Virus record (IMG/VR): IMGVR_UViG_3300046675_000159
Location: 1 to 23,023 of that record
Length of the DNA stretch: 23,023 nt
Source: a virus
Reading direction: 5' to 3' (one strand)
The notes under the pieces are model-generated. The model had not been told where the DNA came from. It searched no databases and saw only the letters and a program-made list of their open reading frames with translations. Each line of letters opens with the position of its first letter. The first letter of the stretch is position 1. Below, one piece after another: positions 1-23,023 of the stretch. The translations under genes and the position numbers were made by a program.

Positions 1-2
1 GT

Positions 3-719
3 GGTGTAAGCGCCCTGCCGCAGGGGGTTTGCAGGGCTTATAGCAACAGCTTCACATTCACCCCAGGCCTTGGCGACATCGTCCTTTATTCCTACGGCCT
101 ATGCGGCATCAGACGCACCGCGATCCTGCAAGAGCACATGGCCGACGCCCACATGGCGGCGAACCTTCTCCTGGCCGACTGGTCAACCAAGGGCGTCAAT
201 CTCTGGCAAGTTTCTAAAGCCACGATCACGCTTGAGGCGGGCGTCGGAGAATACGACGTTTCGTCCGAAACGCTCGTCATGCTCGACACGTATCTGACGG
301 TTCCGGATGGCATGGACCGCATCATGCTCCCCGTCAGCCGCACCGAATTTGCGAGCTACCCCAGGAAAGACCAGCAGGGCGTCCCGACTGTCTTCTGGAT
401 GGATCGCCAGCTTCCAGGCAGCGGCGTCTTTCACATCTGGCCCGTGCCTGACCGCGACACTTACACCCTGACCTATTATTTTCTGTCGCAGGCGCAGGAC
501 GCCAACTACGCAAACGCCCAGCAACCGGCGGTCCCGCAGGAGTGGCTCTACGCCTTCGCCACCGGCCTGGCCGAGAAGCTGGCGATGTCATGGGCGCCAG
601 AGCGGCTGGCCTTCCTTTCGCCTATTGCTGAAAAAGCCTACGACACCGCCTCACGCAGCGGCGTCGAGACGGCGACCCAGTACATCAGCCCGCAGATCGG
701 CGGATATTACAGAAACTGA
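3..719 (+). CDS. Phage head-completion / head-tail connector protein, 5' partial
   Basis: The reading frame is open from the left edge to the TGA at 717-719, so the gene starts upstream of the window. An ATG at 138 exists, but the residues before it (SFTFTPGLGDIVLYSYG, then GIRRTAILQEHMADAHMAAN) look like the conserved N-terminus of small connector proteins of short-tailed phages, so a start at 138 would truncate the protein. The helical N-terminal part (TAILQEHMADAHMAANLLL, then WSTKGVNLWQV) is followed by a beta-rich middle and ends in IGGYYRN. Such proteins sit between portal and tail and close the head after DNA packaging. It is followed 10 nt later by a small CxxC gene. The family assignment rests on remembered sequence style, not a search, and a T7 gp11-like or P22 gp4-like role cannot be separated here. 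Confidence 0.7.
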   Translation, partial: GVSALPQGVCRAYSNSFTFTPGLGDIVLYSYGLCGIRRTAILQEHMADAHMAANLLLADWSTKGVNLWQVSKATITLEAGVGEYDVSSETLVMLDTYLTVPDGMDRIMLPVSRTEFASYPRKDQQGVPTVFWMDRQLPGSGVFHIWPVPDRDTYTLTYYFLSQAQDANYANAQQPAVPQEWLYAFATGLAEKLAMSWAPERLAFLSPIAEKAYDTASRSGVETATQYISPQIGGYYRN

Positions 720-729
720 GGAGCGAGCC

Positions 730-732
730 GTG
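730..732 (+). promoter_or_regulatory. Ribosome site that decides a GTG start
   Basis: GAGGAG at 718-723 overlaps the preceding stop codon and sits 6 nt before GTG 730. It supports GTG 730 over the upstream ATG at 625 for the small CxxC protein. Confidence 0.75.
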
Positions 733-1230
733 GGCTACAGTTCGAAACTCGGCAGAGCGAGGATCAATTCCCGCAACCCGCAGGCAGCGGCGATCTGCGA
801 CCGCTGCGGCTTCGTCTTCAATCATGTCGATCTCCAGTGGCAGCACGACTATGCCGGCGCCATGATGATCAACAAGCGGATCCTGATCTGCCATGCTTGC
901 CTCGATGAGCCGCAGCAGCAGCTTCGCGCCATCGTCCTGCCAGCCGATCCGATGCCGATCATCAATCCGCGTCCGCAGGAATATCGCGCGACCGAATCCA
1001 ACACTCGACAGGCCAGCGGCTACGACACGGTCGACGCCAAGACTGGCATCCCGGTCCCAGGCGGGCCAGCCCGCACCACGCAGACTGACGACACCCGCGT
1101 CACGCAGCAGACCGGCGCGCCCAGCGGGACGAGGAACCACAGGCCCGGCACCGATCCGAATGCGCCCGGCAACGCCGATCCGGGCTTGCCCTACGACAAT
1201 ATCGATGTTCCAGACACGGGGCCTCTCTGA
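730..1230 (+). CDS. Small zinc-finger-like phage protein (two CxxC pairs)
   Basis: The start chosen is GTG at 730, because GAGGAG at 718-723 lies 6 nt upstream; an ATG at 625 in the same frame would overlap the previous gene by 95 nt and lacks this support. The 166-residue product has Cys pairs at about residues 23/26 (CDRC) and 54/57 (CHAC) separated by a Trp/His-containing stretch, a spacing fit for one zinc knuckle. The C-terminal third is low complexity, rich in Gly, Pro, Asn and Thr, and probably unfolded. It lies between a connector gene and the fibre genes. Small CxxC proteins at this place occur in related phages, but their function is unknown to me; a virion or assembly role is only a guess from position. 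Confidence 0.7.
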   Translation: MGYSSKLGRARINSRNPQAAAICDRCGFVFNHVDLQWQHDYAGAMMINKRILICHACLDEPQQQLRAIVLPADPMPIINPRPQEYRATESNTRQASGYDTVDAKTGIPVPGGPARTTQTDDTRVTQQTGAPSGTRNHRPGTDPNAPGNADPGLPYDNIDVPDTGPL

Positions 1231-1232
1231 CA

Positions 1233-3104
1233 ATGGCAAACGTCCAGATCCCCAACCTTCCCGTCGCCCTCGCGCTTTCCGGCGACGAATCGCTTGAGGT
1301 CGTGCAGGGCGGCGTCTCGATGCGCGCCACCACACAGCAGATGGCGGGCCTAGCTCCTCCGGGGCCGCCGGGACCGACAGGGCCAAAGGGCGACAAGGGC
1401 GACACTGGCAACACGGGACCGCAAGGCCCGCAGGGCGCCCAAGGCACGCCTGGCGCCGCAGGCAACGCTGGCGGCCTCGACGGTCAGATCCAGTATAACA
1501 ACGGCGGCACCTTCAACGGCTTTGTGACCAGCGGCGACGGCACGCTGACCCGCTCCAGCCTCGGCGCTTTCACGCTGACTGTCACCAAGACCAACAATGT
1601 GCCGTTCGGCCCCTACGCCACGGCGCCTTCGTTGCCCTTGTTCACCAGCAGCGTGGCTGGCGTGGTCCCGGCGTCAGGCGGTGGCACAGCCAATTTCATG
1701 CGCGCGGACGGCACATGGGCCGCGCCAGCGGTTTCGACGGCGGCTGGCGGCTCGCCCGGCCAGATCCAGATCAATGTCGCGGGCGCGTTTGGCGGCGTGA
1801 ACCTGAATGGCACCGGCTCCGTGGTTGGCACCAACAATGCGGTAAGCGTGACTTTCGCGTCTCCACTGGCCGTCAGCAGCGTCAGCGGCAACGCTGTGTT
1901 TTTTGTCAACAAAGCCACCAGCACGTTCAAGAGCGTCATTTCCGGCCTTTCGAACAACACATCTCGCTGGGATCTGGTCCTTGGCGACACCGCCACAGAA
2001 ACCGGCAGCAGCGCCGGGTCCAATTTTGCCCTCACGCGCTACACTGATGCCGGTTTGCTTATCGACAGCCCGCTTACGGTCAGTCGCGCCACTGGCCAGA
2101 TGACGTTCACGCAGCCGATCAATGCGCCCGGTCTGGACATGCGCAACAGGCTGATCAACGGCGAGTTCAAAATTGATCAATGGAATAACTACAGCACGAA
2201 GACCCCCACGAACAGCACCTTTGTAGCCGACAGATGGGTGTATTCTTGCTCTCAAGCCAGCAAGTTTTCCTCGGCAGCAATAAACAACAGCGGCCTCGCT
2301 TTGATTGGCGGTGAGTTCCAAACCTACATGGAACTGACAGTGCTCTCTGCATACACGCCTCTTACTGCCGACTATTTCAGTATTGTCCAAACCATAGAGG
2401 GAGTTAACTGGTACGATCTCGGCTTTGGCTTGTCCGGCGCGAAGCCGGTAGCGTTCTCTTTTTGGGTTAACACCACCGTCACCGGCACACATTCTGGGTC
2501 GCTCAGGAACGACAACGCCTCCAGATCCTACCCGTTCTCGTTTTCGGTGCCACTAGCTAATACGTGGACGAAGATTATTGTCCCTATCGCAGGGGATACC
2601 GGCTCGACATGGCAGGGGTTCACCAACGGCGCTGCGGCTTCAGCTATGATCAATCTAGGCAGCGGGGCGACATACCAAGGTCCGGCGGGCTTCTGGGCAA
2701 ACAGCAACTACGTCGCGGCGTCCGGGTCCGTTAATGTGGTGGCGAACGCAGCCGCGAAGTTCAGGATCACGGGCGTTCAGATCGAGCAGGGATCAGCGGC
2801 GACGGCGTTTGAGAGAAGGCCATTCGATACAGAGGTGCGGATGTGCCAGCGGTACTTCCAAGGTGGTAGTGGCGTTTGCTCTCAATACAGCCCAATAAGC
2901 GGAAACGCGCTGTACACTCCGCTCAACTTCGTGGCGTCCATGCGCGCATCCCCTTTGGTTGCCGTCAGTCCGAATGGTGGGACCGGCTGGGCTTCTGTCA
3001 CCTATGCTGGCGTCACGGCCACGGGTTTTTCCCTACAATCCACTTCTAACATAGTGGGCGGCGTAGCGTTCAACTTCACTTACACAGCCAATGCGGAGCT
3101 TTGA
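1233..3104 (+). CDS. Tail fibre protein with collagen-like stretch (fibre 1)
   Basis: A 623-residue modular fibre. Residues 1-40 form the short module seen at the start of all three fibre genes here (IPNLPVALALSGDESLEVVQ). Residues about 43-81 are Gly-X-Y triplets of collagen type, which would trimerise as a rod. The middle contains QIQYNNGG and QIQINVAG segments and one copy (around 1965) of the 90-residue unit that is repeated five times in the 3807-7403 gene. From about residue 303 (MRNRLINGEF, then VADRWVYS) to the end is a beta-rich domain of the kind found at tips of appendages and often called carbohydrate-binding-like. The ATG at 1233 follows the previous stop by 2 nt; its ribosome site is weak, which suggests translational coupling. 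Role: host-surface recognition. Fibre assignment is strong, the receptor unknown. Confidence 0.85.
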   Translation: MANVQIPNLPVALALSGDESLEVVQGGVSMRATTQQMAGLAPPGPPGPTGPKGDKGDTGNTGPQGPQGAQGTPGAAGNAGGLDGQIQYNNGGTFNGFVTSGDGTLTRSSLGAFTLTVTKTNNVPFGPYATAPSLPLFTSSVAGVVPASGGGTANFMRADGTWAAPAVSTAAGGSPGQIQINVAGAFGGVNLNGTGSVVGTNNAVSVTFASPLAVSSVSGNAVFFVNKATSTFKSVISGLSNNTSRWDLVLGDTATETGSSAGSNFALTRYTDAGLLIDSPLTVSRATGQMTFTQPINAPGLDMRNRLINGEFKIDQWNNYSTKTPTNSTFVADRWVYSCSQASKFSSAAINNSGLALIGGEFQTYMELTVLSAYTPLTADYFSIVQTIEGVNWYDLGFGLSGAKPVAFSFWVNTTVTGTHSGSLRNDNASRSYPFSFSVPLANTWTKIIVPIAGDTGSTWQGFTNGAAASAMINLGSGATYQGPAGFWANSNYVAASGSVNVVANAAAKFRITGVQIEQGSAATAFERRPFDTEVRMCQRYFQGGSGVCSQYSPISGNALYTPLNFVASMRASPLVAVSPNGGTGWASVTYAGVTATGFSLQSTSNIVGGVAFNFTYTANAEL

Positions 3105-3105
3105 C

Positions 3106-3810
3106 ATGAGCGCCGCAGACATTCTCAGCCTCCCTGTCGCCATCGGCCTTTCGGGCGAGGAGTTCATCGAGGTCGTCCAGGGCGGAACGCTCCATCGCGC
3201 CACGGTCAAACATTTCAGCAAGCGGCTGCTGGAGGGCGAGATCCCCAACGGCGTCCTCGTGCTGGACGGCAAGGAAGGTCCGCCAGGCGGCGCAGGCCCG
3301 CCCGGACCGCCTGGGGAAGGTCTGCCCGGCCCGCCGGGTCCACCCGGCCCGCCGGGTCCACCCGGCTCGCGGGGCGCGATCTTCACGCCGGCGTCTGGCG
3401 CCGTCATCCGCTCGTGGTCCGTCTACGACAGCAATCAGCATGTGTTCAAGGAACGCTATTTCCTGGGCGCCGACTTCCAGAAGAAGAATTTTTATCCGCA
3501 ACTGATGCTCGCGCCGGCTGTGTCGACCGTCGGCAACCGGCTGCGGTTGCGGGCCAAGATCTGGTGCAGCGGCACGGACACCGATTGCGTCATCAATGGC
3601 GGCTTATTCCTGAACGGAACAAAAGCGGTGAGCGTCGCGCGCGCCTTCGCTGACGCGCCGCTGCTGTTCGACTACGAATGCATCCCAGACACCACGGCGG
3701 CGCAAATGTTTTCTTTCTGCGTCGGCACGGCTGAGAGCGGCGCTGATTGCATTGTCAATATGCCGCACCTAGTCCAGAGTTGCCTCGTCATCGAGGAGAT
3801 CCAGGCGTGA
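3106..3810 (+). CDS. Short tail fibre/appendage protein with collagen-like stretch (fibre 2)
   Basis: A 234-residue protein. ATG 3106 is preferred over ATG 3091 because GGAG at 3095-3098 sits 7 nt upstream and the N-terminus then aligns with the two neighbouring fibres (LPVAIGLSGEEFIEVVQGG). Residues about 57-90 are near-perfect Gly-Pro-Pro triplets with a small interruption (GEGLPG); two adjacent 18-bp units (3328-3345, 3346-3363) are identical at the DNA level. The C-terminal 140 residues form a beta-rich globular domain with Cys residues (WCSGTDTDCVINGG) that I do not recognise; it could be a small receptor-binding head. The stop codon overlaps the next start (GTGA, 3807-3810). Fibre or appendage is inferred from the shared N-terminal module, the collagen rod and the position. 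Confidence 0.75.
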   Translation: MSAADILSLPVAIGLSGEEFIEVVQGGTLHRATVKHFSKRLLEGEIPNGVLVLDGKEGPPGGAGPPGPPGEGLPGPPGPPGPPGPPGSRGAIFTPASGAVIRSWSVYDSNQHVFKERYFLGADFQKKNFYPQLMLAPAVSTVGNRLRLRAKIWCSGTDTDCVINGGLFLNGTKAVSVARAFADAPLLFDYECIPDTTAAQMFSFCVGTAESGADCIVNMPHLVQSCLVIEEIQA

Positions 3811-6800
3811 GCGACATCCAGATCCCAAACCTGCCGCCCGCTACCGACTTGACTGGCTCGGAGCAACTGGAGATCGTTCAAGCCGGCGTCTCGGTGCGCG
3901 CCACGATTGCGCAGATCATCACTGACGCCAATGTTCCGACGGCCTCCAGCACTCTGCCAGGGATGGATGGCGGGGCCTCGGCGGGTGTCGAGGTGACCTA
4001 CTCGCGCGGCGATCACATCCACCCGACCGACACCACGCGCTACGCCGCGAGCAATCCGGCAAATTATGTGACAGCGACCCAGGTCACCGCCGCGCTGGGG
4101 CCTTACGCCCTGATCGATAGCCAGGCGTTCACCGGGACGCCCTCGATGCCGACAGGCGCCACGGGCGTCACTCAGACGGCGGCGGATAGCTCGACCAAGC
4201 TGGCGACCACAGCCTTCGTCAAGGCCCAAGGCTACGCGCCGACATCGTCCCTCGGCACGATGTCCGTCCAGAACGCCAATGCCGTGGCGATCATCGGCGG
4301 CTCCATCAACAGCACGACCGTCGGCGCAACCGTGGCCAGCACCGGCGCCTTCACCACCTTGAGCGCGGTCACCAGCGCCAACTTCACCACCGCCGGCACA
4401 GTCACTATCAATCCGACCACGCTCGGCCATGTTGACAATACGGCGGTTGGAGCGACCACGCCCAGCACCGGCGCCTTCACCAATCTGAGCGCCAGCGGCG
4501 CAGTGTCGGGCGTCGGCTTCACCAATCTGCTCTCGACCTACGCCAAGATCGATTCTCAGGCTTTCACAGGGACGCCCTCGTTGCCCACCGGCACGACAGG
4601 CATCACCCAGGCTACCGCCGACAGCACGACCAAATTGGCGACCACGGCCTTCGTCAAGGCCCAGGGCTACCAGACGGTTGCAGCCCTCGGCACCATGTCC
4701 ACCCAGAACGCCAACGCCGTGGCGATCACTGGCGGCACGATCAACGGCACGTCTGTTGGCGCGACCACGCCCAGCACCGGAGCTTTCACCAATCTGTCGG
4801 CGTCGGGCACGGTATCGGGCGCCGGCTTCACCGCGCTGCTGGCTCCCTATGCGACCACGGCGTCCCTGGGGACGATGTCCACCCAGAACGCCAATGCCGT
4901 GGCGATCACCGGCGGCGCGATCAATGGCACGACGATTGGCGCCACCACGGCGGCGGCTGGCACCTTTACCAACCTGACCGCGACCGGCACGGTTTCCGGC
5001 GCCGGCTTCACGACGCTGCTGACGCCCTACGCGCTGGTCAATTCTCAGGTCTTCACTGGGACGCCCAGCCTGCCGACAGGCACCATCGGCGTGACGCAGG
5101 CGGCGGCCACCAATAACACGACGCTGGCGACCACGGCTTATGTGAAGTCGCAGAACTACCTGACCGCCAACCAGACCATCACGCTTTCGGGCGATGTCAC
5201 TGGATCTGGCGCTGCGGCAATCGCGGCGACGGTCGTCCAGCTTCAGGGCCGACCGCTGTCGGCCTCCCTGCCCGCCACCGGCAACCTGATGGGCTGGAAC
5301 GGCACGACGTGGGGTCCGGTCGCGGCTGGCGCGGCGGCGGCGGGCGGCACTAACACCCAGATCCAATATAACAACGGCGGCGTCCTCGGCGGCATTTCGC
5401 AGAATGGTAGCGGCACCGTGGTGATGACCACCAACTCGACTGCTGTCGTTCACCAGAACACGCTCGGCGTTACGGGCGCAGCGGCGGCGAACGACGCCGC
5501 CTTCACGCTGAACAAGTCCGCGTCGGCTCAGAAAAACATCATCTATGGGCAGACGGCGACATCGCTTCGCTGGAGCGTGACCCTTGGCGACGTGACGGCG
5601 GAAGGCGGCAGCAACGCCGGTTCAGACTTCAACATTTCGCGCTATACCGATGCAGGCGGTGCGCTCGACAGCCCGCTCAAGATCGTTCGCTCGACCGGCG
5701 TCGCCACGTTCGCGCAGGCGCTATTTTCGGCCAACCACACCGTCACGGGTGCTGCGGGCAATAACGCCGCTGTGATCATCAACAAAGCCGCTGCCGGGTT
5801 CTACAGCGGCATCGAGACGCAGACCAACGGCTCACGGCGCTGGCTGATGATGCCGGGTGACAACACGGCGGAAGGCGGCAGCAACGCTGGCTCCGATTTC
5901 CTGATCAATCGCTACAGCGACACGGCGGTGTTTATCGACACGTCGTTCAAGATTGTCCGCTCGACAGGGCAGGCGACCTTCGCATCGCCCGCAAAGTTTC
6001 CGTCCAATGCGGTAAACGCCAACACTAACCCCGGCGGGTTGGACGGCATCACTATCGAGGGCGCTACTGGCGCGTTGGGCATCGCATCCACCAGAGCCGG
6101 GTTATTGCGCTGGCGCGCAGCTTTTGGATCGACTACGGCGGAAAGTGGAAGCAACACCGGGTCTGACTTTATCCTAAGTCGCTATGCCGATAATGGAACT
6201 TCGATTGACGCCCCGTTCTCCATCAGTCGAGCGACCGGCGTCGCCACCTTCGCCAATGCGCTTATTTCCGGCAACCACACGGTCAACGGCCCAGCATCGA
6301 CCGACGCCGTACTGACCCTCAACAAGCCAGCATCTGGGTTTCAAAGCATAATCTACGGGCAGAAAGCTGGCGTGAACCGCTGGGCCGTGTCGCTCGGCAA
6401 CAGCACTGCTGAAAGCAGCAACGCTGGGTCTGACTTTTACGTCAATCGGTATAACGACGCTGGGACATACATAGACAGCCCGCTTTGGGTTAATCGCTTG
6501 ACCGCACAAGCCAACTTTTCGGGCGCGATAATCACCACCGCCGGAATTGCAACCCTCGCGCCCCCGGCTGGCGACGCCGCCATCTACTTGGCTAAATCAG
6601 GGTCCGCCAAAACCAACCTCATTGTCGGGCAGACTGGCGCAAGCAATCGCTGGTTCATGGCGATGGGCGACAATACAGCGGAAAGCGGCGGCAACGCCGG
6701 TTCTAACTTTGCTCTGTCCCGCTTCAATGACGCTGGAGCTTATATAGACACCCCATTTTTTATTAACCGCAATGATGCCACTGTTGGATTTTCCAGCACT

Positions 6801-7403
6801 GTTACGGCTAATGCTTTCAAAGCAAGCGGTCCTTATGCGTTACAGGTTACTGGTCTGGAAGTTGGCTCCGGGCCAACGTCCTACACTCAGTACCCCGCTA
6901 TATGTAATCCATCTTATGGCTCGATGAACATCTATTGTCAGCACATACCCGGCACTGTAGTCCAGTGGGCGCTGTCTATTGCGAGTGCTGGCACCTTTTC
7001 ATTTGACGGCAGCGGCAACGGGAAGGCGCCGGGAACGTGGGTCAGCCTCTCCGACCTTCGCGTCAAGACCGACATCAAGGAAATCAAGTCGGCCCTCGAA
7101 AAAGTCGGCAGGCTCACCGGCTGCACCTACGAGCGCACCGATCTGCACAATTTGGACGGCACTCGGTCCATGCACGCCGGTCTGATCGCACAGGACATTC
7201 AGGCAGTGCTGCCCGAAGCCGTGTTCGAAGACAAGACGCCGGATGGAAAGATATTTGGCGAGGACGAGCCGGGCAGGCTGTCCTACGCAACAAACGGCGT
7301 CGTGGCGCTGCTGGTCAACGCCGTCAAGGAACTGACGGCGCGCGTTGAGGCGTTGGAAGCGGCTGCTGCCCCGGCGCCAGCCAAGACAAGGAGAAGCAGA
7401 TGA
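3807..7403 (+). CDS. Long tail fibre/tailspike with C-terminal S74 self-cleaving chaperone (fibre 3)
   Basis: GTG 3807 is chosen because GAGGAG at 3793-3798 is 8 nt upstream and the protein then begins with the shared fibre module (SDIQIPNLPPATDLTG). It has 1198 residues. Residues about 40-450 carry two interleaved repeat types: FTGTPS followed by TKLATTAFVKAQGY, and GTMSTQNANAVAI. Residues about 557-1008 hold five 90-residue repeats. The end is an intramolecular chaperone auto-processing domain (peptidase S74): SDLRVKTDI with presumed catalytic Ser1082 and Lys1087, then AGLIAQDIQAVLPEAV and a C-terminal coiled coil (VNAVKELTARVEALEAAAA). In this family the chaperone trimer folds the beta-helical shaft and cuts itself off just before the Ser, so a mature fibre of about 1081 residues is predicted. 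The last codons overlap the endolysin gene by 4 nt. Confidence 0.88.
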   Translation: MSDIQIPNLPPATDLTGSEQLEIVQAGVSVRATIAQIITDANVPTASSTLPGMDGGASAGVEVTYSRGDHIHPTDTTRYAASNPANYVTATQVTAALGPYALIDSQAFTGTPSMPTGATGVTQTAADSSTKLATTAFVKAQGYAPTSSLGTMSVQNANAVAIIGGSINSTTVGATVASTGAFTTLSAVTSANFTTAGTVTINPTTLGHVDNTAVGATTPSTGAFTNLSASGAVSGVGFTNLLSTYAKIDSQAFTGTPSLPTGTTGITQATADSTTKLATTAFVKAQGYQTVAALGTMSTQNANAVAITGGTINGTSVGATTPSTGAFTNLSASGTVSGAGFTALLAPYATTASLGTMSTQNANAVAITGGAINGTTIGATTAAAGTFTNLTATGTVSGAGFTTLLTPYALVNSQVFTGTPSLPTGTIGVTQAAATNNTTLATTAYVKSQNYLTANQTITLSGDVTGSGAAAIAATVVQLQGRPLSASLPATGNLMGWNGTTWGPVAAGAAAAGGTNTQIQYNNGGVLGGISQNGSGTVVMTTNSTAVVHQNTLGVTGAAAANDAAFTLNKSASAQKNIIYGQTATSLRWSVTLGDVTAEGGSNAGSDFNISRYTDAGGALDSPLKIVRSTGVATFAQALFSANHTVTGAAGNNAAVIINKAAAGFYSGIETQTNGSRRWLMMPGDNTAEGGSNAGSDFLINRYSDTAVFIDTSFKIVRSTGQATFASPAKFPSNAVNANTNPGGLDGITIEGATGALGIASTRAGLLRWRAAFGSTTAESGSNTGSDFILSRYADNGTSIDAPFSISRATGVATFANALISGNHTVNGPASTDAVLTLNKPASGFQSIIYGQKAGVNRWAVSLGNSTAESSNAGSDFYVNRYNDAGTYIDSPLWVNRLTAQANFSGAIITTAGIATLAPPAGDAAIYLAKSGSAKTNLIVGQTGASNRWFMAMGDNTAESGGNAGSNFALSRFNDAGAYIDTPFFINRNDATVGFSSTVTANAFKASGPYALQVTGLEVGSGPTSYTQYPAICNPSYGSMNIYCQHIPGTVVQWALSIASAGTFSFDGSGNGKAPGTWVSLSDLRVKTDIKEIKSALEKVGRLTGCTYERTDLHNLDGTRSMHAGLIAQDIQAVLPEAVFEDKTPDGKIFGEDEPGRLSYATNGVVALLVNAVKELTARVEALEAAAAPAPAKTRRSR
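5475..6830 (+). repeat. Five-copy 270-nt (90-residue) in-frame repeat array in the long fibre gene
   Basis: The Arg-Trp dipeptide codons that mark each unit fall at 5568, 5838, 6108, 6378 and 6648, exactly 270 nt apart each time. Each unit reads roughly RW..xLGD.TAE, then GSNAGSDF, RY.DAG..IDSP and a TGxATF-like end. DNA identity between units is only partial, so the array is old and diverged, yet its length register is kept. One more unit is in the first fibre gene, around 1965. It probably encodes successive rungs or subdomains of a trimeric shaft. Confidence 0.85.
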
Positions 7404-8011
7404 TCGACCGCGAGTTTTTCTTCGACACCGTCCGCGACGAGCTTTTCCCCAGCGGGATGGCGCAGTCTCAGGTGGACGGCATGAACAATCTGCTCAACAT
7501 CTGGGAGGCCGACTACGCCGCCGCCAACCCGCGCGACGGCAAGATGTGGCTGTCCTATGGGCTGGCGACCGTCTACCACGAGAGCGCGCAGACCATGCAG
7601 CCCATCGAGGAATACGGCAAGGGCGAGGGCCACAGCTACGCCGATCCGGATGGCCCCTACGGCCAGTCCTATTACGGGCGCGGCCATGTCCAATTGACCT
7701 GGTTCGAAAACTACGAAAAGGGCGAGGCGGTCTTCAAGGAGAAGTTCGACCGCAACGTGCCGATGGTCAAATATCCGCATCGCATGCTGGAGGAGGAAAC
7801 CTCGGCGGTGATTTTATATGAAGGCATGATCGACGGCTGGTTTACCGGCGTCGGCCTGCCCGATTTCTTCAGCGCCGAAGAGGGCGAGGAAGACCCCTAC
7901 AACGCTCGCAAGATCATCAACGGCCTCGACAAGGCTTCGACCATCGAGGGCTATTACTGGCAGTTCAAATCCGCTCTGAGGGACCAAGCTGATGCGGAGA
8001 GCAGTGTTTAA
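7400..8011 (+). CDS. GH19-family (chitinase-like) endolysin
   Basis: A 203-residue muralytic enzyme; ATG 7400 overlaps the fibre stop (ATGA) and AAGGAGAAG lies just upstream. GH19 hallmarks are visible: HES at residues 60-62 with Glu61 as the likely general acid, a second acidic cluster EEYGKGEG (residues 70-77), and YYGRGHVQLTW (91-101), the family's substrate-cleft signature. GH19 phage enzymes cut the glycan strands of peptidoglycan. No signal peptide or separate wall-binding domain is seen, so release through a membrane lesion made by another protein is expected; the overlapping downstream gene is the obvious candidate. The acidic stretch EEGEEDPYNARKIINGLD near the C-terminus fits the usual GH19 fold end. 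Assignment is confident; exact bond specificity is not shown. Confidence 0.88.
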   Translation: MIDREFFFDTVRDELFPSGMAQSQVDGMNNLLNIWEADYAAANPRDGKMWLSYGLATVYHESAQTMQPIEEYGKGEGHSYADPDGPYGQSYYGRGHVQLTWFENYEKGEAVFKEKFDRNVPMVKYPHRMLEEETSAVILYEGMIDGWFTGVGLPDFFSAEEGEEDPYNARKIINGLDKASTIEGYYWQFKSALRDQADAESSV

Positions 8012-9001: not shown

Positions 9002-9005
9002 CGCC

Positions 9006-11192
9006 ATGCCTCACGCAACGCTCAAACTCAAACCTGGCGTCAATACCAACGAGACGCCTGTCTTGAACGAGGCGGGGGTTTCGGCGTGCAACCTGATTCG
9101 CTTCAAGTTCGACCCGCAGGGCCTCGGCCTGATCGAGAAGCTTGGGGGTTGGGCCAAGTTCAAAGCCAATGCGCTTCCAGAAGTTGTGCGCCACCTCTAT
9201 GCCTGGCAGGCAATCAACGCCGATAAGTTCATCGTCGCCGGGATGCAAGGCACGGGCGGCCTGTTTCTCATGCAAGCGAGGCAGCTACCTAACGGCAATT
9301 ATGTCGATGATCCGGGTCTGGTGTCGACGCCAAACATCACGCCGCTTTTTAACTATTCCGATGCGGCGCCAGCTTACTCCACTACCGCAGGAAGCCCGAT
9401 TGTCAGCATTTCCGATTCCACGATGACCAACGCCATCCACATTACGGATGCAGTTTACATCGCCACGCACGTCGCTATCGGCGGCATCGTGCTTTTTGGT
9501 CAGTACCCGATCTATAGCGTTGCAAGCACCACGCAATTTTCGATCATGTCGCTGACGCTGTTGGGTCTGCCCAATTCGGCGCTATCCACATCCACCGCAG
9601 GCGTGTTGCCGACATTCACGACTGTGCTGGACGACTTTGTCGTCACTGTCACTCTCCCCAATCATGGCTACGTGATAGGGAGCTATTTTCCGCTTCTCAT
9701 CCCGATCACCGTCGGCGGCATCACGCTTCAGGTAGCCTCGTATCCTATCCAGAAAATCATCGACGCCAACAGGTTCACCATCTATGCGCAGAACGTGGCT
9801 ACCTCAGTGGCGACAGCGACGCTGAACAGCGGCAACGTCCGAATGATCTACAATGTCGGCGGCATCCCGATCACCACGCAGAGCGGCTACGGCACGCCAT
9901 TCCGCGCGACGCCCGGATTTGGCTACGGCAAGCCAGACGTGATGACCGCCGGTTTTGGTTATGGTCTGGGCGGCGCCGTCCCTGCCATCCCAGGCACGCC
10001 GGCGTTTGCGAACGACTGGGCCTTGGACAACTGGGGGAGCACCTTGCTCGCCAGCCCTGAAGGCGCCGTGATCGACGGCATTCCCGTGTCGGGGATTTAC
10101 GCCTGGACGCCTGATCAAGGCACGACGGTCGTTGCGCTGATCCCCGAAGCGCCGCCGGTCAACGATGGCTTCTTTGTCGCCATGCCGCAGCGCCAGATCG
10201 TCACCTGGGGGTCGAGCTTCGATGGCGTGCAGGATCCGCTGCTGATCCGCTGGTGCGATGTCAACGATTACACGACCTGGACGGCGACGATCACCAACCA
10301 GGCCGGATCGTATCGCGTGCCGAAAGGGTCAAGAATCGTCGGCGCCATTCAGGGGCCGCAGCAGGGCCTGATCTTCACCGATCTGGCCGTATGGGCGATG
10401 CAGTATATCAGCCAGCCCTACATTTATTCGTTCAACGAAATCGGCAACGGTTGCGGCTTGATCGCGCAGAAAGCGGCGACGTCGCTCAATGGTACGGTCT
10501 ACTGGATGAGCCATCGCCAGTTCTTCCAGCTTTCAGGCGGCGGCGTCCAGCCGATCCCATGCCCCATCTGGGACATTGTTTTTCAGAGCATTGATCGCCG
10601 CTTTTACGACAAGATCCGGATCGCGCCGAACTCGATGTTCAGCGAGGTTTCGTGGTTTTTCACATCAGTCAATTCGCCTAATCAGGAGAACGACAGCTAC
10701 GTCAAATTCAACTATGTGCTGAACGTGTGGGACTATGGAACGCTGTCGCGCTCGGCATGGATACCGCAGAGCGTGATCGGCGCGCCGCTCGGCGCTATCC
10801 CCGACCCAACCAGCGGAAAAAATTATGTCTACCAGCATGAAATCTCGCCAGACGCCGATGGCCAGGTGCTGAACTCCTGGTGTACGACGGGCTATTTCGC
10901 GCTGTCCGATGGCGACAACAAGATCTTCGTCGATGAAATCTGGCCGGATATGAAATGGGGCCAGTACGGCGGCACGCCGAACGCCACGGTCAGCTTCACT
11001 TTTGGCGCGACCGATTTTCCGAACGTGGCGCCGACGCAGTTTGGTCCTTTCAGCTTCACGTCTGCCGACACTTACACCACGCCTCGACTGCGCGCGCGCC
11101 TGCTGCAGGTGACTATCTCCAGCAATGATCTCGGCTCGTTCTGGCGCCTCGGCGGGATGCGGTATCGGATGGCTCCGGATGGGAAATACTGA
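9006..11192 (+). CDS. Packaged-DNA stabilisation / tail hub-like structural protein (gp10-like)
   Basis: A 728-residue protein. ATG 9006 is favoured over an in-frame ATG at 8952, which would overlap the upstream gene by 50 nt and would add an Arg/Pro-rich leader; a weak GAAG precedes 9006. The start LKLKPGVNTNETPVLNEAG followed by IRFKFDPQGLGLIEKLGGW is typical of a family of short-tailed-phage structural proteins usually called stabilisation protein or gp10-like. Other typical blocks are LDNWGSTLLASPEGAV (from residue 340), RWCDVNDYTTW and SWFFTSVNS. Such proteins form the beta-propeller-like hub or nozzle under the adaptor ring that keeps DNA inside and holds fibres. It overlaps the next gene by 1 nt (TGATG). 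The role is by family resemblance, not proven here. Confidence 0.65.
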   Translation: MPHATLKLKPGVNTNETPVLNEAGVSACNLIRFKFDPQGLGLIEKLGGWAKFKANALPEVVRHLYAWQAINADKFIVAGMQGTGGLFLMQARQLPNGNYVDDPGLVSTPNITPLFNYSDAAPAYSTTAGSPIVSISDSTMTNAIHITDAVYIATHVAIGGIVLFGQYPIYSVASTTQFSIMSLTLLGLPNSALSTSTAGVLPTFTTVLDDFVVTVTLPNHGYVIGSYFPLLIPITVGGITLQVASYPIQKIIDANRFTIYAQNVATSVATATLNSGNVRMIYNVGGIPITTQSGYGTPFRATPGFGYGKPDVMTAGFGYGLGGAVPAIPGTPAFANDWALDNWGSTLLASPEGAVIDGIPVSGIYAWTPDQGTTVVALIPEAPPVNDGFFVAMPQRQIVTWGSSFDGVQDPLLIRWCDVNDYTTWTATITNQAGSYRVPKGSRIVGAIQGPQQGLIFTDLAVWAMQYISQPYIYSFNEIGNGCGLIAQKAATSLNGTVYWMSHRQFFQLSGGGVQPIPCPIWDIVFQSIDRRFYDKIRIAPNSMFSEVSWFFTSVNSPNQENDSYVKFNYVLNVWDYGTLSRSAWIPQSVIGAPLGAIPDPTSGKNYVYQHEISPDADGQVLNSWCTTGYFALSDGDNKIFVDEIWPDMKWGQYGGTPNATVSFTFGATDFPNVAPTQFGPFSFTSADTYTTPRLRARLLQVTISSNDLGSFWRLGGMRYRMAPDGKY

Positions 11193-11605: not shown

Positions 11606-11606
11606 C

Positions 11607-12236: not shown

Positions 12237-12238
12237 AA

Positions 12239-12742: not shown

Positions 12743-12747
12743 ACGTC

Positions 12748-17436: not shown

Positions 17437-17441
17437 CAATG
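17428..17441 (+). promoter_or_regulatory. Ribosome site that decides the start of the second ejection gene
   Basis: GGAGG at 17428-17432 lies 6 nt before ATG 17439 and directly touches the alternative TTG at 17433, so the ATG is the better start. The site lies inside the last codons of the giant upstream gene, which links translation of the two. Confidence 0.8.
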
Positions 17442-19064
17442 GCTGACCCAACGACTGACGACGTCATGATGGGCGCTGACGCCGGCGCTCCTGCTCCTGC
17501 GGTTGTGGCGCCGGGCAGGGTTGATGCGGATCCTGTCGTCGCCAAAGCCATGCCTGTGGCCAGGGACGCGGCGCCGTCGCCGCCCCTGTTCGCGCGCAAG
17601 CCTGTTGCTGCGCCGGCAGAAGAGAAGGGCGGCGGGCAGAAGGGCGGCGACTGGTTCGGACAGAACCGTAGCTGGCTGATCCCGCTGTTGAGCGGCGTCG
17701 GCGGCATGGCGTCGTCGAATAGTCCTTACCTCGGCACCGCAATCCTGCAGGGGCTGGGCAAGGGTGCGGAAGCTTATGGCAGCGAGCAGCAGAACGAGGC
17801 CGATCTGGCCAGCAGGCAATCCGGAACGCGCCGCAATGATGTCGGCACGGTGAAGGAAGCCCTTGATATCCAGAAAGGCGCCATCTACAAAAAAGCCGGC
17901 ATCGACACGGTCGCCCTTGAAGGCGGCGGCGAGATGTCCTTTGCCCAGTGGATCGCGCTGGACAAGCTCGGCAAGGCGCCGCCTGTCGTTGGCGCGCAAG
18001 AAATTCGCAATTCAGAAGCGTACACGAAGGGCACGAACGCGCCCAGCACGTACACGGGCGGACCCGGCGGACCGGGTGTGCTTGGCGATCCAGGTCATCC
18101 TGGCGGTCCTGCTGGCGGTCCTGCTGGCGGTCCTGCTGGCGGTCCTGCTGGCGGTCCTGCTGGCGGTCCTGCTGGCGGTCCTGCTGGCGGTCCTGCTGGC
18201 GCGCCAGCCCCTCATTTCCTGCCGGATGCCCAGCCGCAGTTGCCGAAGACACACGAGGAAGCCGCGAACGCCGTTGGCGAAAAGGGCGGGGCGATCCTGG
18301 ATGAGGCGTCGAACCGTTACCTCATGAATGAGGGCGACTATAATGACGCGAAAAGAGCGTCGGCAGGATTGGAGAAAGGCATTCCGGCGGAAGCGGAAGC
18401 CGCTCGCAGCCAGCGCGTCAATCTGTATCAGATGGCCGATAAAATACTCCAGCAGCCCGACGAGGGTTTTCTGAAGGCTGATGCTCTCGGCACCGTCAAG
18501 CACACTGTCGCGGGCTATTACAACGCCTTGCTCGACGTCGCGCATTTGACGCCGGATCAGATGAAAATGCTCCGGATGGACGACAAGGACATTGGCACCG
18601 GAACGGCAATCGATAAATTTTCGAAAAGCCTGGGCTTCCTCTCCGCTAGTGGCATGGATCAAAATTCGTATGCCGCCCTCCAGCAGGCGCTGGCTATGGT
18701 CCCGAATAAGGACATGAGCAAAGAGCAGGCGATCCAGGTGCTCCACGGGATGGTTGTGGGCCACCAGAGAGCCATCGACCGCGATGCATACCTTGCCGAC
18801 TGGAAGCGGCGTTCCGGCGGCGATCACCCCGGCACGTCTCGTTGGACCGGCATCGACGCCATGCATGCCTTCGAAGCTGATCACGGCGACAGATACGGCA
18901 AAGAGGGCAAGGCGTTCGAAGACGTGATGCGGATGAAGCACGGCAAAACCGGCAAATATCTCTTCTCCGATATCGTCAATGGCTCGACGGACGCGCGCGG
19001 CCTGGACAAGAAGCTCGGCATACCGGGTTTCTCTCGCTGGTTCCACAATTACGGAGGGAGTTGA
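17439..19064 (+). CDS. Presumed internal virion/ejection protein with GGPA repeat
   Basis: A 541-residue protein. ATG 17439 is preferred to the in-frame TTG at 17433 because GGAGG at 17428-17432 is 6 nt before the ATG and would touch the TTG. The N-terminal 60 residues are Ala/Pro/Val-rich and probably unfolded; a Gly-rich hydrophobic stretch follows (WLIPLLSGVGGMASS, then TAILQGLGKGAEAYG). Residues 222-253 are eight exact GGPA units after a short collagen-like lead (GGPGGPGVLGDPGHP). The C-terminal half is helical and charged (AEAEAARSQRVNLYQMADKI, DQMKMLRMDDKDIGTGTAID). I recognise no enzyme motif. Its place between two large ejection-like genes and its composition support a packaged internal protein; this is inferred from context only. 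Confidence 0.6.
   Translation: MADPTTDDVMMGADAGAPAPAVVAPGRVDADPVVAKAMPVARDAAPSPPLFARKPVAAPAEEKGGGQKGGDWFGQNRSWLIPLLSGVGGMASSNSPYLGTAILQGLGKGAEAYGSEQQNEADLASRQSGTRRNDVGTVKEALDIQKGAIYKKAGIDTVALEGGGEMSFAQWIALDKLGKAPPVVGAQEIRNSEAYTKGTNAPSTYTGGPGGPGVLGDPGHPGGPAGGPAGGPAGGPAGGPAGGPAGGPAGGPAGAPAPHFLPDAQPQLPKTHEEAANAVGEKGGAILDEASNRYLMNEGDYNDAKRASAGLEKGIPAEAEAARSQRVNLYQMADKILQQPDEGFLKADALGTVKHTVAGYYNALLDVAHLTPDQMKMLRMDDKDIGTGTAIDKFSKSLGFLSASGMDQNSYAALQQALAMVPNKDMSKEQAIQVLHGMVVGHQRAIDRDAYLADWKRRSGGDHPGTSRWTGIDAMHAFEADHGDRYGKEGKAFEDVMRMKHGKTGKYLFSDIVNGSTDARGLDKKLGIPGFSRWFHNYGGS
18102..18197 (+). repeat. Perfect 12-bp tandem repeat, 8 copies
   Basis: The unit GGCGGTCCTGCT occurs eight times with no mismatch and encodes Gly-Gly-Pro-Ala each time with the same four codons. 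A diverged ninth unit (GGCGCGCCAGCC) follows. The unit length is a multiple of three, so gain or loss of copies keeps the frame. The lack of third-position changes points to recent expansion by slippage or unequal exchange. It is not a CRISPR array, because there are no spacers. Confidence 0.95.
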
Positions 19065-19067
19065 GCC

Positions 19068-21131
19068 ATGCCGTCGGTAGACGAGTACAATGCTCCCGAA
19101 CCTGCAGTAAAGGCGGCGCCTGCGGTCGCGCCAAGCGGCGACAAGAGCGATCTCAGCGAATACAACATCCCGCCCAGCGGCAGCGCAGGCTCGACGGCTT
19201 CCGCAGACGCGGAGAAAGAGCCGAACTGGGCGACCATGCCCGTTTCGGAAATCGCCAAGCGCGGCGCTCAGACTTTTATTCCTGCGGCGGTGGTGGGGGC
19301 CGGCAACATGGCGCAAGGCGCGGCCCAGGCGGTCGCGCACACAGTTGAAACGGGCGAGCTTCCCGGCAAGGGCCTGGTCGAGGCCGGCGATGCGTGGCTC
19401 AACAGGAAGCTTTCGGGCTATGCGCCAGAGACGATGAAGGTGATCAACAAGGCGATAGGCTATACGCCGCCGACGGACGAGAACTACACCAAGACCGTCG
19501 AGCCTGGCACCGAAGCCGTCGAAGATCTCAAGAGCCGGTGGGGAAGCCGCGCCGCCATCGCCAAGGGTTTCGGGACCAACACTCCCGCGATGCTGCTGGA
19601 CGCCGCCACCTTCATCGATCCGGCGCTGCGACTGGGCAAGGGCGCGTCTGCATTGACCGCCGGCAAGTCCGCAGCCAGTCTAGGGGAAAAGGCCACCGCC
19701 GCCGACCTCGGCCAGGCCGTCCACGGCGCCGCGTCTGAGGCGCTCGCCGCGAAAGACGCCGCCTACAAGCAAGCCTTCGGCCACACCGCTGTGTTCGATC
19801 CCGCTGCGGCCCAGCCCATCATGGGCGAAGTGCAGGCCAACCTCGCGAAAGTGCCGAACTTTCCAGGCTTGAACCGTCTCGACAAGCACCCGCACCTCGC
19901 GGACGCCAAGGTGGCTTATGACCATCTGAATGATAGCCTCAGAAATATCGATCCGCATGATTTCACCATGCCGAACATGGAGAACATCCGGCGCGACCTC
20001 CAGCAGAAGGCGATGGAGACAGAGAGCGGCCCCGCTCGCTACATGATCGGCCAGATGATCGACGGAATCGACAGCGGCATCAGCAAGGTGGCGACGAAGC
20101 CGGGGATGTACGCCGGCGACGGCGCCGCCGTGGCCTCCGATATGGCCAAAGCTCGCAAGTTGAACGTCGACTGGATCAAGCAATTTGGCAGCGAGGCGCC
20201 GTCGAGCTTCAAGCCCACGATGGGTGTGCTTCCGAAAGACCTGGCGACGGCTGATGACAGCCATTTCCACGCTGCCGGCACGGGCCTCGGCAATGCGCTG
20301 ATGAACGAGGGCAAGGGCGGCGTTCTCTACAATCACCTCAAGCAATTCGTGCCGAAAGAAACCCTCGACAACTACCTGCGCGAGCCGATGCTGGCGGGCA
20401 AATCCGCAGACGTGACGAAGCGGCTGAACACGCCCATCGCGCAGGATGTCTTTGGCTCCGAACTGGACAGGGCCAAGAAGTTGGCCGCCACGCAGGACAC
20501 CAGGACGCTCGCGGGCAAGGCGGCTTCGGTTGGTAAGTGGGGGTTGGAGGCAGCGGCGCCTATCGTTGGTCACGCGCTGTTTCCGGGTGGCGGCGGCGCC
20601 TTGGCTGGATTAGCAGCGAGTGGTGTCGGGGAGCTTGCGAGCAGGAAGTTTTTCCCGCACGGCGTCGGCAGCAGGGCGCCGCTCTATGAGCGTTTTGTGG
20701 GGGATTCGACGCCCCCGTTGACGAAGATCGAGGCCGCGAAGCGGGCGGTGAACCCGCTCACCTGGGCGAAGCCATCGACCTACACGCCGCTGCTCAACCC
20801 CGTAGCTTACAAAGAGGCGGCGCTCCCGTTGACGGGCGCCGGCGCAATCGGCCACAGGGCGGCTGAAGCTCCGCACACGGCGGCGGCGGTCACCTCGACT
20901 GCGCCGACCGAATCCGATCCGCTGGCCGGAATGTCCTATGGCTACGACCCCACGGGGCAGAACCGATTCGCCAAGGGCGGCGCCGTGAAAGGTCACCAGC
21001 ATCTGGTCGACCGGCTATTCGCCGCGCACGAGCGCGCCAAGCGCGAGGAAAAGGCGCATACTGCGGGCATCCTGCACCAGCCTGACGAGGCGGTCGCAAA
21101 AGCCCTCCACGTCGCCCAGGCGGCTATCTGA
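19068..21131 (+). CDS. Presumed internal virion/ejection protein
   Basis: A 687-residue, mostly helical, Ala-rich protein. ATG 19068 lies 3 nt after the previous stop with GGAGGGAG at 19053-19060. Two short N-terminal repeats (VDEYNAPEP and LSEYNIPPS) are followed by a Gly/Ala hydrophobic helix (IPAAVVGAGNMAQGAAQAVA), a long helical middle (NMENIRRDLQQKAMETESG) and a Gly-rich hydrophobic segment near residues 500-525 (LFPGGGGALAGLAASGVGEL). The last 54 residues (FAKGGAVKGHQHLVDRL to VAKALHVAQAAI) match a C-terminal tail I recall from large virion proteins of alphaproteobacterial phages. Such proteins leave the capsid first and may form a channel across the cell envelope. No enzyme motif is seen, and the assignment is by context and composition. 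Confidence 0.6.
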   Translation: MPSVDEYNAPEPAVKAAPAVAPSGDKSDLSEYNIPPSGSAGSTASADAEKEPNWATMPVSEIAKRGAQTFIPAAVVGAGNMAQGAAQAVAHTVETGELPGKGLVEAGDAWLNRKLSGYAPETMKVINKAIGYTPPTDENYTKTVEPGTEAVEDLKSRWGSRAAIAKGFGTNTPAMLLDAATFIDPALRLGKGASALTAGKSAASLGEKATAADLGQAVHGAASEALAAKDAAYKQAFGHTAVFDPAAAQPIMGEVQANLAKVPNFPGLNRLDKHPHLADAKVAYDHLNDSLRNIDPHDFTMPNMENIRRDLQQKAMETESGPARYMIGQMIDGIDSGISKVATKPGMYAGDGAAVASDMAKARKLNVDWIKQFGSEAPSSFKPTMGVLPKDLATADDSHFHAAGTGLGNALMNEGKGGVLYNHLKQFVPKETLDNYLREPMLAGKSADVTKRLNTPIAQDVFGSELDRAKKLAATQDTRTLAGKAASVGKWGLEAAAPIVGHALFPGGGGALAGLAASGVGELASRKFFPHGVGSRAPLYERFVGDSTPPLTKIEAAKRAVNPLTWAKPSTYTPLLNPVAYKEAALPLTGAGAIGHRAAEAPHTAAAVTSTAPTESDPLAGMSYGYDPTGQNRFAKGGAVKGHQHLVDRLFAAHERAKREEKAHTAGILHQPDEAVAKALHVAQAAI

Positions 21132-21141
21132 GGATTCGGAC

Positions 21142-22155
21142 ATGGTGACCTTCACAACGAACAAAAACCTGTCCAAGCCCGCTAACGGCGCGCCGGCTTG
21201 GGACACTCCGACCAACCATGACTGGGACGTGGTGGACGTGGCGCTCGGCGGGGTTGGGAGGTTCAATCTCGCCGGGGCTTCCGGCCAGATACTGCTCAAT
21301 TCCGCGTTGCCTAACATTCCGCCGCAGGTTGGCGACAATACGCACATCCCCCCTGTTTTTAGCTGTGTCGGCGCAATAGCAAACGACGTCGCTCTGGTAA
21401 TTCCGGCGGGGATTACCGGGCATTGGATCATCAGCAATTTCACCACCAACCCGCACAGCTTGTGGTTCAGCACCAACGCCGCCGGGGCGAACAGCGTCTC
21501 TTTGCCGCAGGGACTGACGTCGCACGTCTATTCAGAGGGCACATACGTTTATGCCATTGGCACCACGGCCACGGCACAGGCATTGGCTCAGATTGGCGAG
21601 GTCAAGTTGTTCGCCTCGCCTTTCATTCCAGCCACCTGGCTCCTCTGCGCTGGCCAGCCCGTCAGCCGCACGACCTATTCGCTGCTGTTCGCCTACATTG
21701 GCAACATCTACGGCAACGGCGATGGATCATCGACATTCAACGTGCCCGATATGCGCGGTCGCGTTGCCGCCGGCGCCGACAACATGGGCGGCGGCTTCGC
21801 CGGTCGCCTGAATGGCTGGAGCATTGGCGTCAACGGTGGCGCCTCCCAAAGCGCGTTGACAGATCCCAGTCAGCTACCGTGGCACGATCACGGCGCCGGC
21901 AACCACGGCCACGGCGCAAACCAAGACGGCCACCAGCATGCTATTCCAAACTATGTGATTACCGGCGGTGGCGGAAACGTGGGCGTAGGCGCGCCTGCGT
22001 GGGGCATCGCGCAGAACACCGGCACCGACTGGAGACAGCCAACCGTCAACATCGCCAACAGCGGCAATATCATATACGGGCAGGGCAGCAGCGTCCCGTT
22101 CAATATCGTGCAGCCGACGCAGGCGATGAATTATATTATCTACGCCGGCGCCTAG
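21142..22155 (+). CDS. Phage tail-collar-domain protein
   Basis: A 337-residue protein. ATG 21142 has GAGGA at 21130-21134. The N-terminal 40 residues (FTTNKNLSKPANGAPAWDTP, then WDVVDVALGG) are a module typical of phage appendage proteins. Residues about 152-210 are a clear tail-collar domain: GEVKLFASPFIPATWLLCAG, then YIGNIYGNGDGSSTFNVPDM and RGRVAAGADNMGGG. It is followed by a His cluster (WHDHGAGNHGHGANQDGHQH, residues 247-266) and ends MNYIIYAGA, both usual for the family. In T4-type fibres comparable His residues bind metal ions within the trimer tip, so metal binding is plausible here. Role: receptor-binding or collar appendage. The stop shares CTAG with the opposite-strand gcrA-like gene. 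Confidence 0.85.
   Translation: MVTFTTNKNLSKPANGAPAWDTPTNHDWDVVDVALGGVGRFNLAGASGQILLNSALPNIPPQVGDNTHIPPVFSCVGAIANDVALVIPAGITGHWIISNFTTNPHSLWFSTNAAGANSVSLPQGLTSHVYSEGTYVYAIGTTATAQALAQIGEVKLFASPFIPATWLLCAGQPVSRTTYSLLFAYIGNIYGNGDGSSTFNVPDMRGRVAAGADNMGGGFAGRLNGWSIGVNGGASQSALTDPSQLPWHDHGAGNHGHGANQDGHQHAIPNYVITGGGGNVGVGAPAWGIAQNTGTDWRQPTVNIANSGNIIYGQGSSVPFNIVQPTQAMNYIIYAGA
22152..22155. other. Convergent stop codons sharing CTAG
   Basis: The plus-strand tail-collar gene ends with TAG at 22153-22155, and the minus-strand gcrA-like gene ends with TAG read from 22154-22152. The two genes therefore overlap tail to tail by 4 bp. There is no room for an intergenic terminator, and no GC-rich hairpin followed by a T-run was seen within about 60 nt on either side. 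Confidence 0.9.
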
Positions 22156-22571
22156 CTTGCCAACCTTTGGACATGGCATGCGAGCATGTGCTTGCGGCAG
22201 TAGACGGTCACGCCGGGCCTGTCGACCGTCTCGCAGCAATAGGTCACGCCTGCCGGCGAGCGCGGATCTCCGAACGGATATCGGCAGGTGAAGGCCGTCA
22301 GGCTCATGATCGTTCGATCCTGGATGGGCGGCGCGGCGGGCGCTGCGATTGTCTTCATCTTGGGCGTCCTCGGCGGTCTGGGTTTATGGGGCGTCAGAAC
22401 GCTCACGGCCCGACTGACGTCGAAGCCGCGAGCGCGGAGCCTGGATATGACGCCGATGATCGCGTTCTTGGTTTTTCCCAGTTTTTCGCCGGCTTCCGTT
22501 CCACTGAAGCCGGCCTTCCACAGGGCCAGGATCGCGATCTCGTCGCTGTTCATTTCAATTCGTCTGGTCAT
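22152..22571 (-). CDS. gcrA: GcrA-family transcription regulator, phage-encoded
   Basis: A 139-residue protein with both ends of the GcrA family. Residues about 8-47 (MNSDEIAILALWKAGFSGTE, then LGKTKNAIIGVISRL) match the N-terminal helix-turn-helix. Residues 93-139 match the C-terminal Cys/His part: CRYPFGDP (Cys96), YCCET (Cys112/113), YCRKH (Cys125, His128). In Caulobacter and relatives GcrA binds the sigma-70 holoenzyme and activates promoters carrying CcrM-methylated GANTC. A Pro/Lys-rich linker joins the two parts, as in cellular GcrA. ATG at 22571 overlaps the upstream gene by 17 nt; ATG at 22553, 1 nt after that gene's stop, is an equally reasonable start, and neither has a strong ribosome site. 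The gene symbol marks the family, not proven orthology. A phage copy could redirect host RNA polymerase. Confidence 0.85.
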   Translation of the reverse strand: MTRRIEMNSDEIAILALWKAGFSGTEAGEKLGKTKNAIIGVISRLRARGFDVSRAVSVLTPHKPRPPRTPKMKTIAAPAAPPIQDRTIMSLTAFTCRYPFGDPRSPAGVTYCCETVDRPGVTVYCRKHMLACHVQRLAS

Positions 22572-22782
22572 CTACGATTTTCTCGTATTTCACGCCGCAG
22601 AACGGGCAGTATGTCGGAACGACGAGCGGCATCTTTTTGCCTATGCTGCTGACGATTTTTTCAGTCGCGAGCAGCGTAGGGATAACGACCAGGTGACCAT
22701 TGGTGATGTGAAAAGCCTGGGCCAGCTTGGTGTTATTTTCGGCAATCATCGCATTCATTTCGTCGGCGCAATTACAGGTCAC
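22555..22782 (-). CDS. Small zinc-ribbon-like protein
   Basis: A 75-residue protein. The start is GTG at 22782-22780, because GGAGG lies 6 nt upstream of it; the in-frame ATG at 22794 is part of that ribosome site, and longer starts (22902) would run through the neighbouring gene. Cys pairs at the two ends (CNC, residues 3 and 5; CPFC, residues 59 and 62) could bind one zinc. Between them is AEMNAMIAEN-type helix and LVVIPTLLATEKI strand sequence. Small phage proteins with this layout are common in regulatory or early modules, with no function known to me. The start overlaps the upstream small gene (GTGA) and the stop overlaps the gcrA-like gene. Confidence 0.72.
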   Translation of the reverse strand: MTCNCADEMNAMIAENNTKLAQAFHITNGHLVVIPTLLATEKIVSSIGKKMPLVVPTYCPFCGVKYEKIVDDQTN

Positions 22783-22940
22783 GGCGTCCTCCATGTCGCG
22801 AGGGGTTTCGGGTTGAAAAGCATCGAGGCCTCCACCGTGGCATTGTGGTGGGCCTTGACGCGATGAAGGACGTAGGGTGCGGCGAGCGTCGAGACGCTCC
22901 ACATTGCTACAGCCAAGCTTAAGCTTAATTTCTTCACCAT
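22779..22940 (-). CDS. Small secreted or membrane-anchored protein (53 residues)
   Basis: ATG at 22940 to TGA at 22779 encodes 53 residues: a basic start (MVKK), a hydrophobic stretch (LSLSLAVAMWSVSTLAAP) and a soluble tail (YVLHRVKAHHNATVEASMLF and NPKPLATWRTP). This is the form of a signal peptide or single membrane anchor. Its stop overlaps the next GTG start (GTGA) and its start overlaps the stop of the gene cut by the right edge (ATGGTGA), so the three genes look translationally coupled. No strong ribosome site is seen. Function unknown; a lysis accessory or envelope-acting early peptide is possible. Confidence 0.55.
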   Translation of the reverse strand: MVKKLSLSLAVAMWSVSTLAAPYVLHRVKAHHNATVEASMLFNPKPLATWRTP

Positions 22941-23023
22941 ACCGCCGCCAACATTGCTAGAGCCATCGCCGCCGAAATAGCGCCGATCATGTAACCTTCC
23001 CAGAAATCGTTCGTTGTTACGGG
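22934..23023 (-). CDS. C-terminus of a small membrane protein, 5' partial
   Basis: The minus-strand frame is open from the right edge to TGA at 22936-22934 and encodes 29 residues: TTNDFWEGYMIGAISAAMAL followed by AMLAAVW. The last 18 residues form one hydrophobic helix. An ATG at 22990 with GGAAGG just upstream could start an 18-residue peptide, but FWEGYMIGAI reads like a continuous end of a longer protein. It overlaps the start of the 53-residue gene by 7 nt. Confidence 0.4.
   Translation of the reverse strand, partial: PVTTNDFWEGYMIGAISAAMALAMLAAVW

Follow-up and report, generated by a model that had tools for sequence, protein, structure and literature searches.

Absence of GAGTC/GACTC and of a set of restriction-type hexamers from a phage genome fragment points to Type II restriction-site elimination

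The stretch of DNA analysed here, referred to as the window, is a virus record of 23,023 bp that represents the tail and structural third of a phage genome (Table 1). The N-terminal sequences of three adjacent tail genes (1233-3104, 3091-3810 and 3810-7403) are alike, a resemblance which suggests that these genes encode paralogous tail fibres sharing an attachment module. An earlier note on this DNA had named a GcrA-like protein among the products of the window, and this identification is sound, as the protein scores 44.4 bits against PF07750, above the curated threshold of 26.9, and matches the GcrA chain in the PDB at 3.5e-6. No nucleotide match to the window was found in annotated phages, and PF00589 (tyrosine integrase), the one integrase model searched, has no match in the window or in records G001, G003, G004, G005, G024 and G028. 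The window's relatives carry no tRNAs, and its phage lineage is probably lytic. A phage-borne adenine methylase was considered, and the family searched, N6_N4_Mtase (PF01555), matches 0 of 29 records. A protein search of genome contigs for the host returned nine matches, all on MAG contigs of mixed taxonomy, which are probably misbinned phage contigs.

Table 1. Features of the 23,023 bp window
Feature	Positions	Strand	Evidence
Whole window, no GAGTC/GACTC and 18 hexamer classes absent	1..23023		exact counts, codon shuffle
SU10-type adaptor (head-tail connector) protein	138..719	+	Pfam PF24175, 5.4e-11
Tail fibre protein with collagen-like repeat	1233..3104	+	phrog_4492 tail fiber, 6.7e-36
Long tail fibre/spike, S74 intramolecular chaperone domain	3810..7403	+	Pfam PF13884, 8.6e-13
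Endolysin-like protein	7400..8011	+	phrog_181 lysis, 6.9e-19
'Stabilization' virion protein; family marker and tree protein	9012..11192	+	phrog_3287, 2.9e-58
Tail collar-domain protein	21142..22155	+	Pfam PF07484, 6.6e-22
GcrA-like protein, 139 aa	22152..22571	-	Pfam PF07750; PDB chain 7ye1_G

The absence of GAGTC and GACTC (together GASTC), first reported in the earlier note, is real and strongly non-random. Exact counting on both strands of the 23,023 bp gives 0 for each word, and the accompanying counts also held: GAATC (8) and GATTC (11), together GAWTC, occur 19 times, and the neighbouring words are present (CAGTC 19, AAGTC 12, TAGTC 3, CACTC 12, AACTC 10 and TACTC 4). Among the 512 reverse-complement 5-mer pairs, GAGTC/GACTC is the sole pair with zero copies in the window. 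The earlier estimate of about 50 expected sites does follow from base composition, which gives 48.3, but it is overstated in comparison to better null models, which give 13.5 and 23.4±4.1. The first of these is a maximal-order Markov model, whose expectation is not near zero and under which a complete absence has a Poisson chance of ~1.4e-6, or ~7e-4 allowing for the 512 pairs. The second was obtained by shuffling synonymous codons within 17 genes of the window, the minimum in 2000 shuffles being 12. Codon shuffles for the relatives were made on mechanically called ORFs, and the values drift by a few units from run to run, with the GASTC expectation for the window ranging from 20.6 to 23.4. 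GAWTC is not significantly depleted, with 17 sites in genes against a codon-shuffle expectation of 23.7±4.3 (P 0.066). Eliminated sites have been defined by CB < 0.1 and an expected number > 15 (PMC6286503); with the observed/expected ratio (O/E) used here and CB not recomputed, GASTC falls within these limits on codon shuffling (0 against 20.6-23.4), while its Markov expectation of 13.5 is just below the size limit. A zero for GASTC beside 19 GAWTC sites near expectation is the pattern expected of a target of MlyI/PleI/BstNBI-type systems. It is not the pelagiphage-type loss of all GANTC, the 19 GAATC/GATTC sites lying inside the codon-shuffle range.

When words of four to six letters were compared with codon shuffles, many besides GASTC stood at zero. 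In G001, a 138 kb relative of the window, 1618 hexamer classes reach an expected count of 25 or more; 12 of these have no copy at all, none has an O/E between 0.01 and 0.05, and the remainder is smoothly distributed. The loss is specific to one base, with CGGCCG in this genome at 0/126 (observed/expected, here and below) against 276/242 for CGGCCA and 191/189 for AGGCCG, CCGCGG at 0/108 against 170/176 for CCGCGA, and GGGCCC at 0/68 against 164/141 for AGGCCC. Degenerate restriction motifs are wholly or almost wholly lost, as seen for GRGCYC (GAGCCC 0/81, GAGCTC 0/30 and GGGCCC 0/68) and CYCGRG (0/78, 0/58 and 2/26). From the G001 hexamers with O/E <=0.15, 18 classes have 0 copies in the window where codon shuffling expects 170.3±11.2, a figure that is descriptive since the classes were chosen with the window counts known. 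The list omits words that overlap GASTC, as well as GCACGC, which is zero in G001 but 9/22 in the window, and CTTTAA, of which the window has 1 copy; adding GCACGC and CTTTAA changes the figure to 10 against ~197. Hexamers absent from the window include CGGCCG, CCGCGG, GAGCCC, CCCGAG, CAGCTC and GAGACC, three of which individually also have O/E <0.1 with more than 15 copies expected (CGGCCG 0/25.5, CCGCGG 0/23.5 and GAGCCC 0/15.3). CGATCG stands at 0/13 in the window. Elsewhere the same 18 classes are found at 110/154 in G019, 223/300 in G023 and 435/633 to 421/481 in bacterial chromosomes. CAGCTC, GAGACC and GCACGC are asymmetric hexamers, and elimination is less well recorded for sites of this type. 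A depletion of GGCC (180 against 281 under the Markov model) was rejected as a separate effect, being largely the absence of CGGCCG and GGGCCC. Much of the sequence is common to the window and its relatives, so that an absence seen in both is not wholly independent evidence. The earlier note had taken the zero for GASTC as a mark of strong selection, and the finding that the eliminated motifs form a discrete set, mostly of Type II site form, supports this indirectly.

Relatives of the stabilization protein are encoded at 53 viral loci, the closest being 62-65% identical over the full length and originating from IMG/VR samples 3300046xxx. G001 (L094-L100, 1-138254) is made up of two halves of ~69 kb, collinear with one another and for the most part 77-94% identical; the window is collinear with both, at ~67-88% nucleotide identity where aligned, and half A carries DNA polymerase A, SU10-type portal, helicase and nuclease genes. 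The join of two genomes in G001 may represent an assembly fusion, a mosaic genome or tandem prophages; to judge by GASTC site spacing, G028, which comes from a different sample, may cross the same junction. A C5 cytosine DNA methylase (PF00145) lies in half A at L097:18814-19815 and is also found in G005 and G028, with no other match among 14 records tested; it is not an obvious reason for the loss of GASTC.

The nearest relatives already have a GASTC O/E of ~0.10-0.25, and strong depletion is therefore a property of the lineage, with the step of the window from few sites to zero only marginally beyond its sisters, at whose rate ~2-5 sites would be expected. G001 retains 22 GASTC sites in 138 kb, unlike its zero hexamers, so the pressure on GASTC would have been weaker, older or newer than that on the hexamers. 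In the marker-protein tree, strong GASTC depletion occurs in the clade of the window (0.00-0.23), in the GTAC-lacking clade L036/L042/L053 (0-0.30), in L018/L023 and in L177, while GAWTC is eliminated in L177, L016 and L109/L018/L023, and CCWGG in many members. On this distribution, GASTC and GAWTC change independently. CCWGG, GAWTC, AGCT or GTAC is absent or nearly so in L177, L109, L018, L102 and G020; L109 and L016 have lost GAWTC alone, and L177 is without either half of GANTC (1/40 and 0/42). L013/L051, which belong to the next larger group round the window's clade, have not lost the hexamer set (CGGCCG 13/21 in G026), so its elimination probably arose along the branch leading to that clade. 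The single relative with an integrase, G022, has a GASTC O/E of 1.19.

One could propose that GASTC is rare throughout the host chromosome and that the phage mirrors this. High-GC alphaproteobacterial chromosomes do show a mild deficit (O/E ~0.5-0.6, regions averaging ~0.6), with single genomes down to 0.14-0.21, and part of the deficit in the phage lineage may thus be background. Host composition, however, could about halve the GASTC expectation but not alone yield zero, and GASTC spans 0 to 1.2 within one phage family. The chromosomes also have no exactly eliminated hexamers, against a dozen in the phage lineage, and in a 280 kb sample (~250 kb of ORFs) from five alphaproteobacterial genomes, not one of 185 testable palindromes is eliminated. 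Mirrored host composition is consequently an unlikely explanation. High-GC alphaproteobacteria (regions L117-L176) are poor in GASTC and not in GAWTC.

CcrM and GcrA read GANTC, the middle base being indifferent to CcrM, and for this reason they fail to predict a split between GASTC and GAWTC. The earlier note had raised avoidance of one class of GANTC methylation/GcrA sites as a cause. In the form considered here, GANTC sites would be costly to a gcrA-bearing phage when CcrM methylates them or GcrA binds them. The GcrA-like protein of the window, the division of the pelagiphage phylogeny by GANTC depletion (PMC9516812) and the loss of both GANTC halves in L177 are compatible with this idea. 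Against it, GAWTC alone is lost in L109 and L016, and GAWTC, equally a CcrM site, is spared, at 18/22.8 in the window and ~0.6-0.9 in its relatives. The published GcrA motif YGAKTCK (K = G/T) includes GATTC and so crosses the split, and the gcrA-bearing relatives G019 and G011 still have GASTC at 0.39-0.46 with other sites purged. In high-GC alphaproteobacteria the GASTC ratio is similar with (0.60) and without (0.63) a GcrA match. Avoidance of GANTC as such is therefore highly improbable here. A sequencing, assembly or masking artefact, or chance, might be suspected for one 23 kb metagenomic record and one of 512 5-mer pairs tested, but its probability is negligible: the same motif set recurs in relatives from several samples, ~170 hexamers are expected against 0 in the window, and G019 and L010, both from metagenome 3300046812, have opposite lists (GCCGGC 0/31 against 43/37; CGGCCG 15/21 against 0/20), a contrast that neither library preparation nor assembly would readily produce.

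The loss is exact, discrete, lineage-specific and of restriction-type words, which argues for selection by Type II restriction, and we consider it very likely that this phage lineage evades restriction through absent recognition sites, GASTC included. We infer restriction enzymes to be the agent: Type II enzymes of past hosts would have selected against exact motifs, which would have been removed genome-wide through point changes, synonymous and other. The GAGTC-cutting restriction system suggested in the earlier note gains indirect support from the place of GASTC in a discrete set of motifs of Type II form. By analogy, the enzyme concerned may resemble MlyI/PleI, as the loss of GASTC would match AlwI-family Type IIS systems like those of MlyI, PleI and BstNBI, in which GAGTC is cut and the methylase can read GASTC. 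The endonuclease MlyI cleaves GAGTC, while the methylase of the system recognises GASTC (PMC4081073), AlwI-family systems with GASTC have been described (PMC9799307), and a methylase predicted to read GASTC was measured at GAWTC (PMC6700114), so enzymes for each half-class of GANTC exist. In a survey of almost 4000 prokaryotic viruses, elimination was found mostly at orthodox Type II sites and in non-temperate phages (PMC6286503). As a point against this enzyme type, the AlwI-family endonuclease model PF09491 matches only one of 289 alphaproteobacterial genomes, sampled at class level around a Beijerinckiaceae MAG; this match adjoins an adenine-methylase-like ORF in a small genome that is not a known host. 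The model matches 0 of 56 genomes around an Acidithiobacillales MAG and none of the control genomes. Two variants were rejected, a Type III-like strand bias, as the residual GASTC sites of the relatives are in both orientations, and a longer true motif, as the flanks of the residual sites in G001 vary.

Restriction-site elimination is a known kind of counter-defence, and the absences described here are best read as a case with a long motif list. A dozen exact motifs stand at zero with their one-base neighbours intact, and the lists differ among related phages, even within one sample. Lists of absent words could predict the restriction systems, and hence the hosts, of uncultured phages. The loss of one half-class of GANTC is probably unrelated to CcrM and GcrA, which calls for caution in reading GANTC depletion as cell-cycle biology. 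On a more speculative reading, to which we give very little credence, the list of absent words would be a record of the restriction repertoire met, including an SAGCTS-like set and GCACGC, for which no known enzyme was matched, and a GAGTC endonuclease could borrow the GANTC methylation of CcrM for self-protection in place of a dedicated methylase; if true, this would make a cell-cycle mark a defence mark.

Our findings can be set beside several known systems. The phiCbK-like Caulobacter phages also carry a GcrA homologue (PMC3556154), but they form a group of large siphophages and are likened to the window by gcrA alone, the paper being silent on GANTC. GANTC-depleted pelagiphages are likewise phages of Alphaproteobacteria in which a cell-cycle methylation motif is lost in some lineages only (PMC9516812); there the whole of GANTC is concerned, whereas here the GASTC half alone is lost and GAWTC is retained. 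The Type IIS systems of MlyI/PleI/BstNBI and the AlwI family, with a GAGTC site and a GASTC methylase, correspond in motif exactly to the eliminated class (PMC4081073, PMC9799307). The closest parallel in kind is the site elimination of Rusinov et al. 2018 (PMC6286503), an exact loss of Type II sites that is strongest in non-temperate dsDNA phages, in comparison to which at least 12 hexamer classes are here gone together, over 138 kb of relatives and including the asymmetric CAGCTC, GAGACC and GCACGC.
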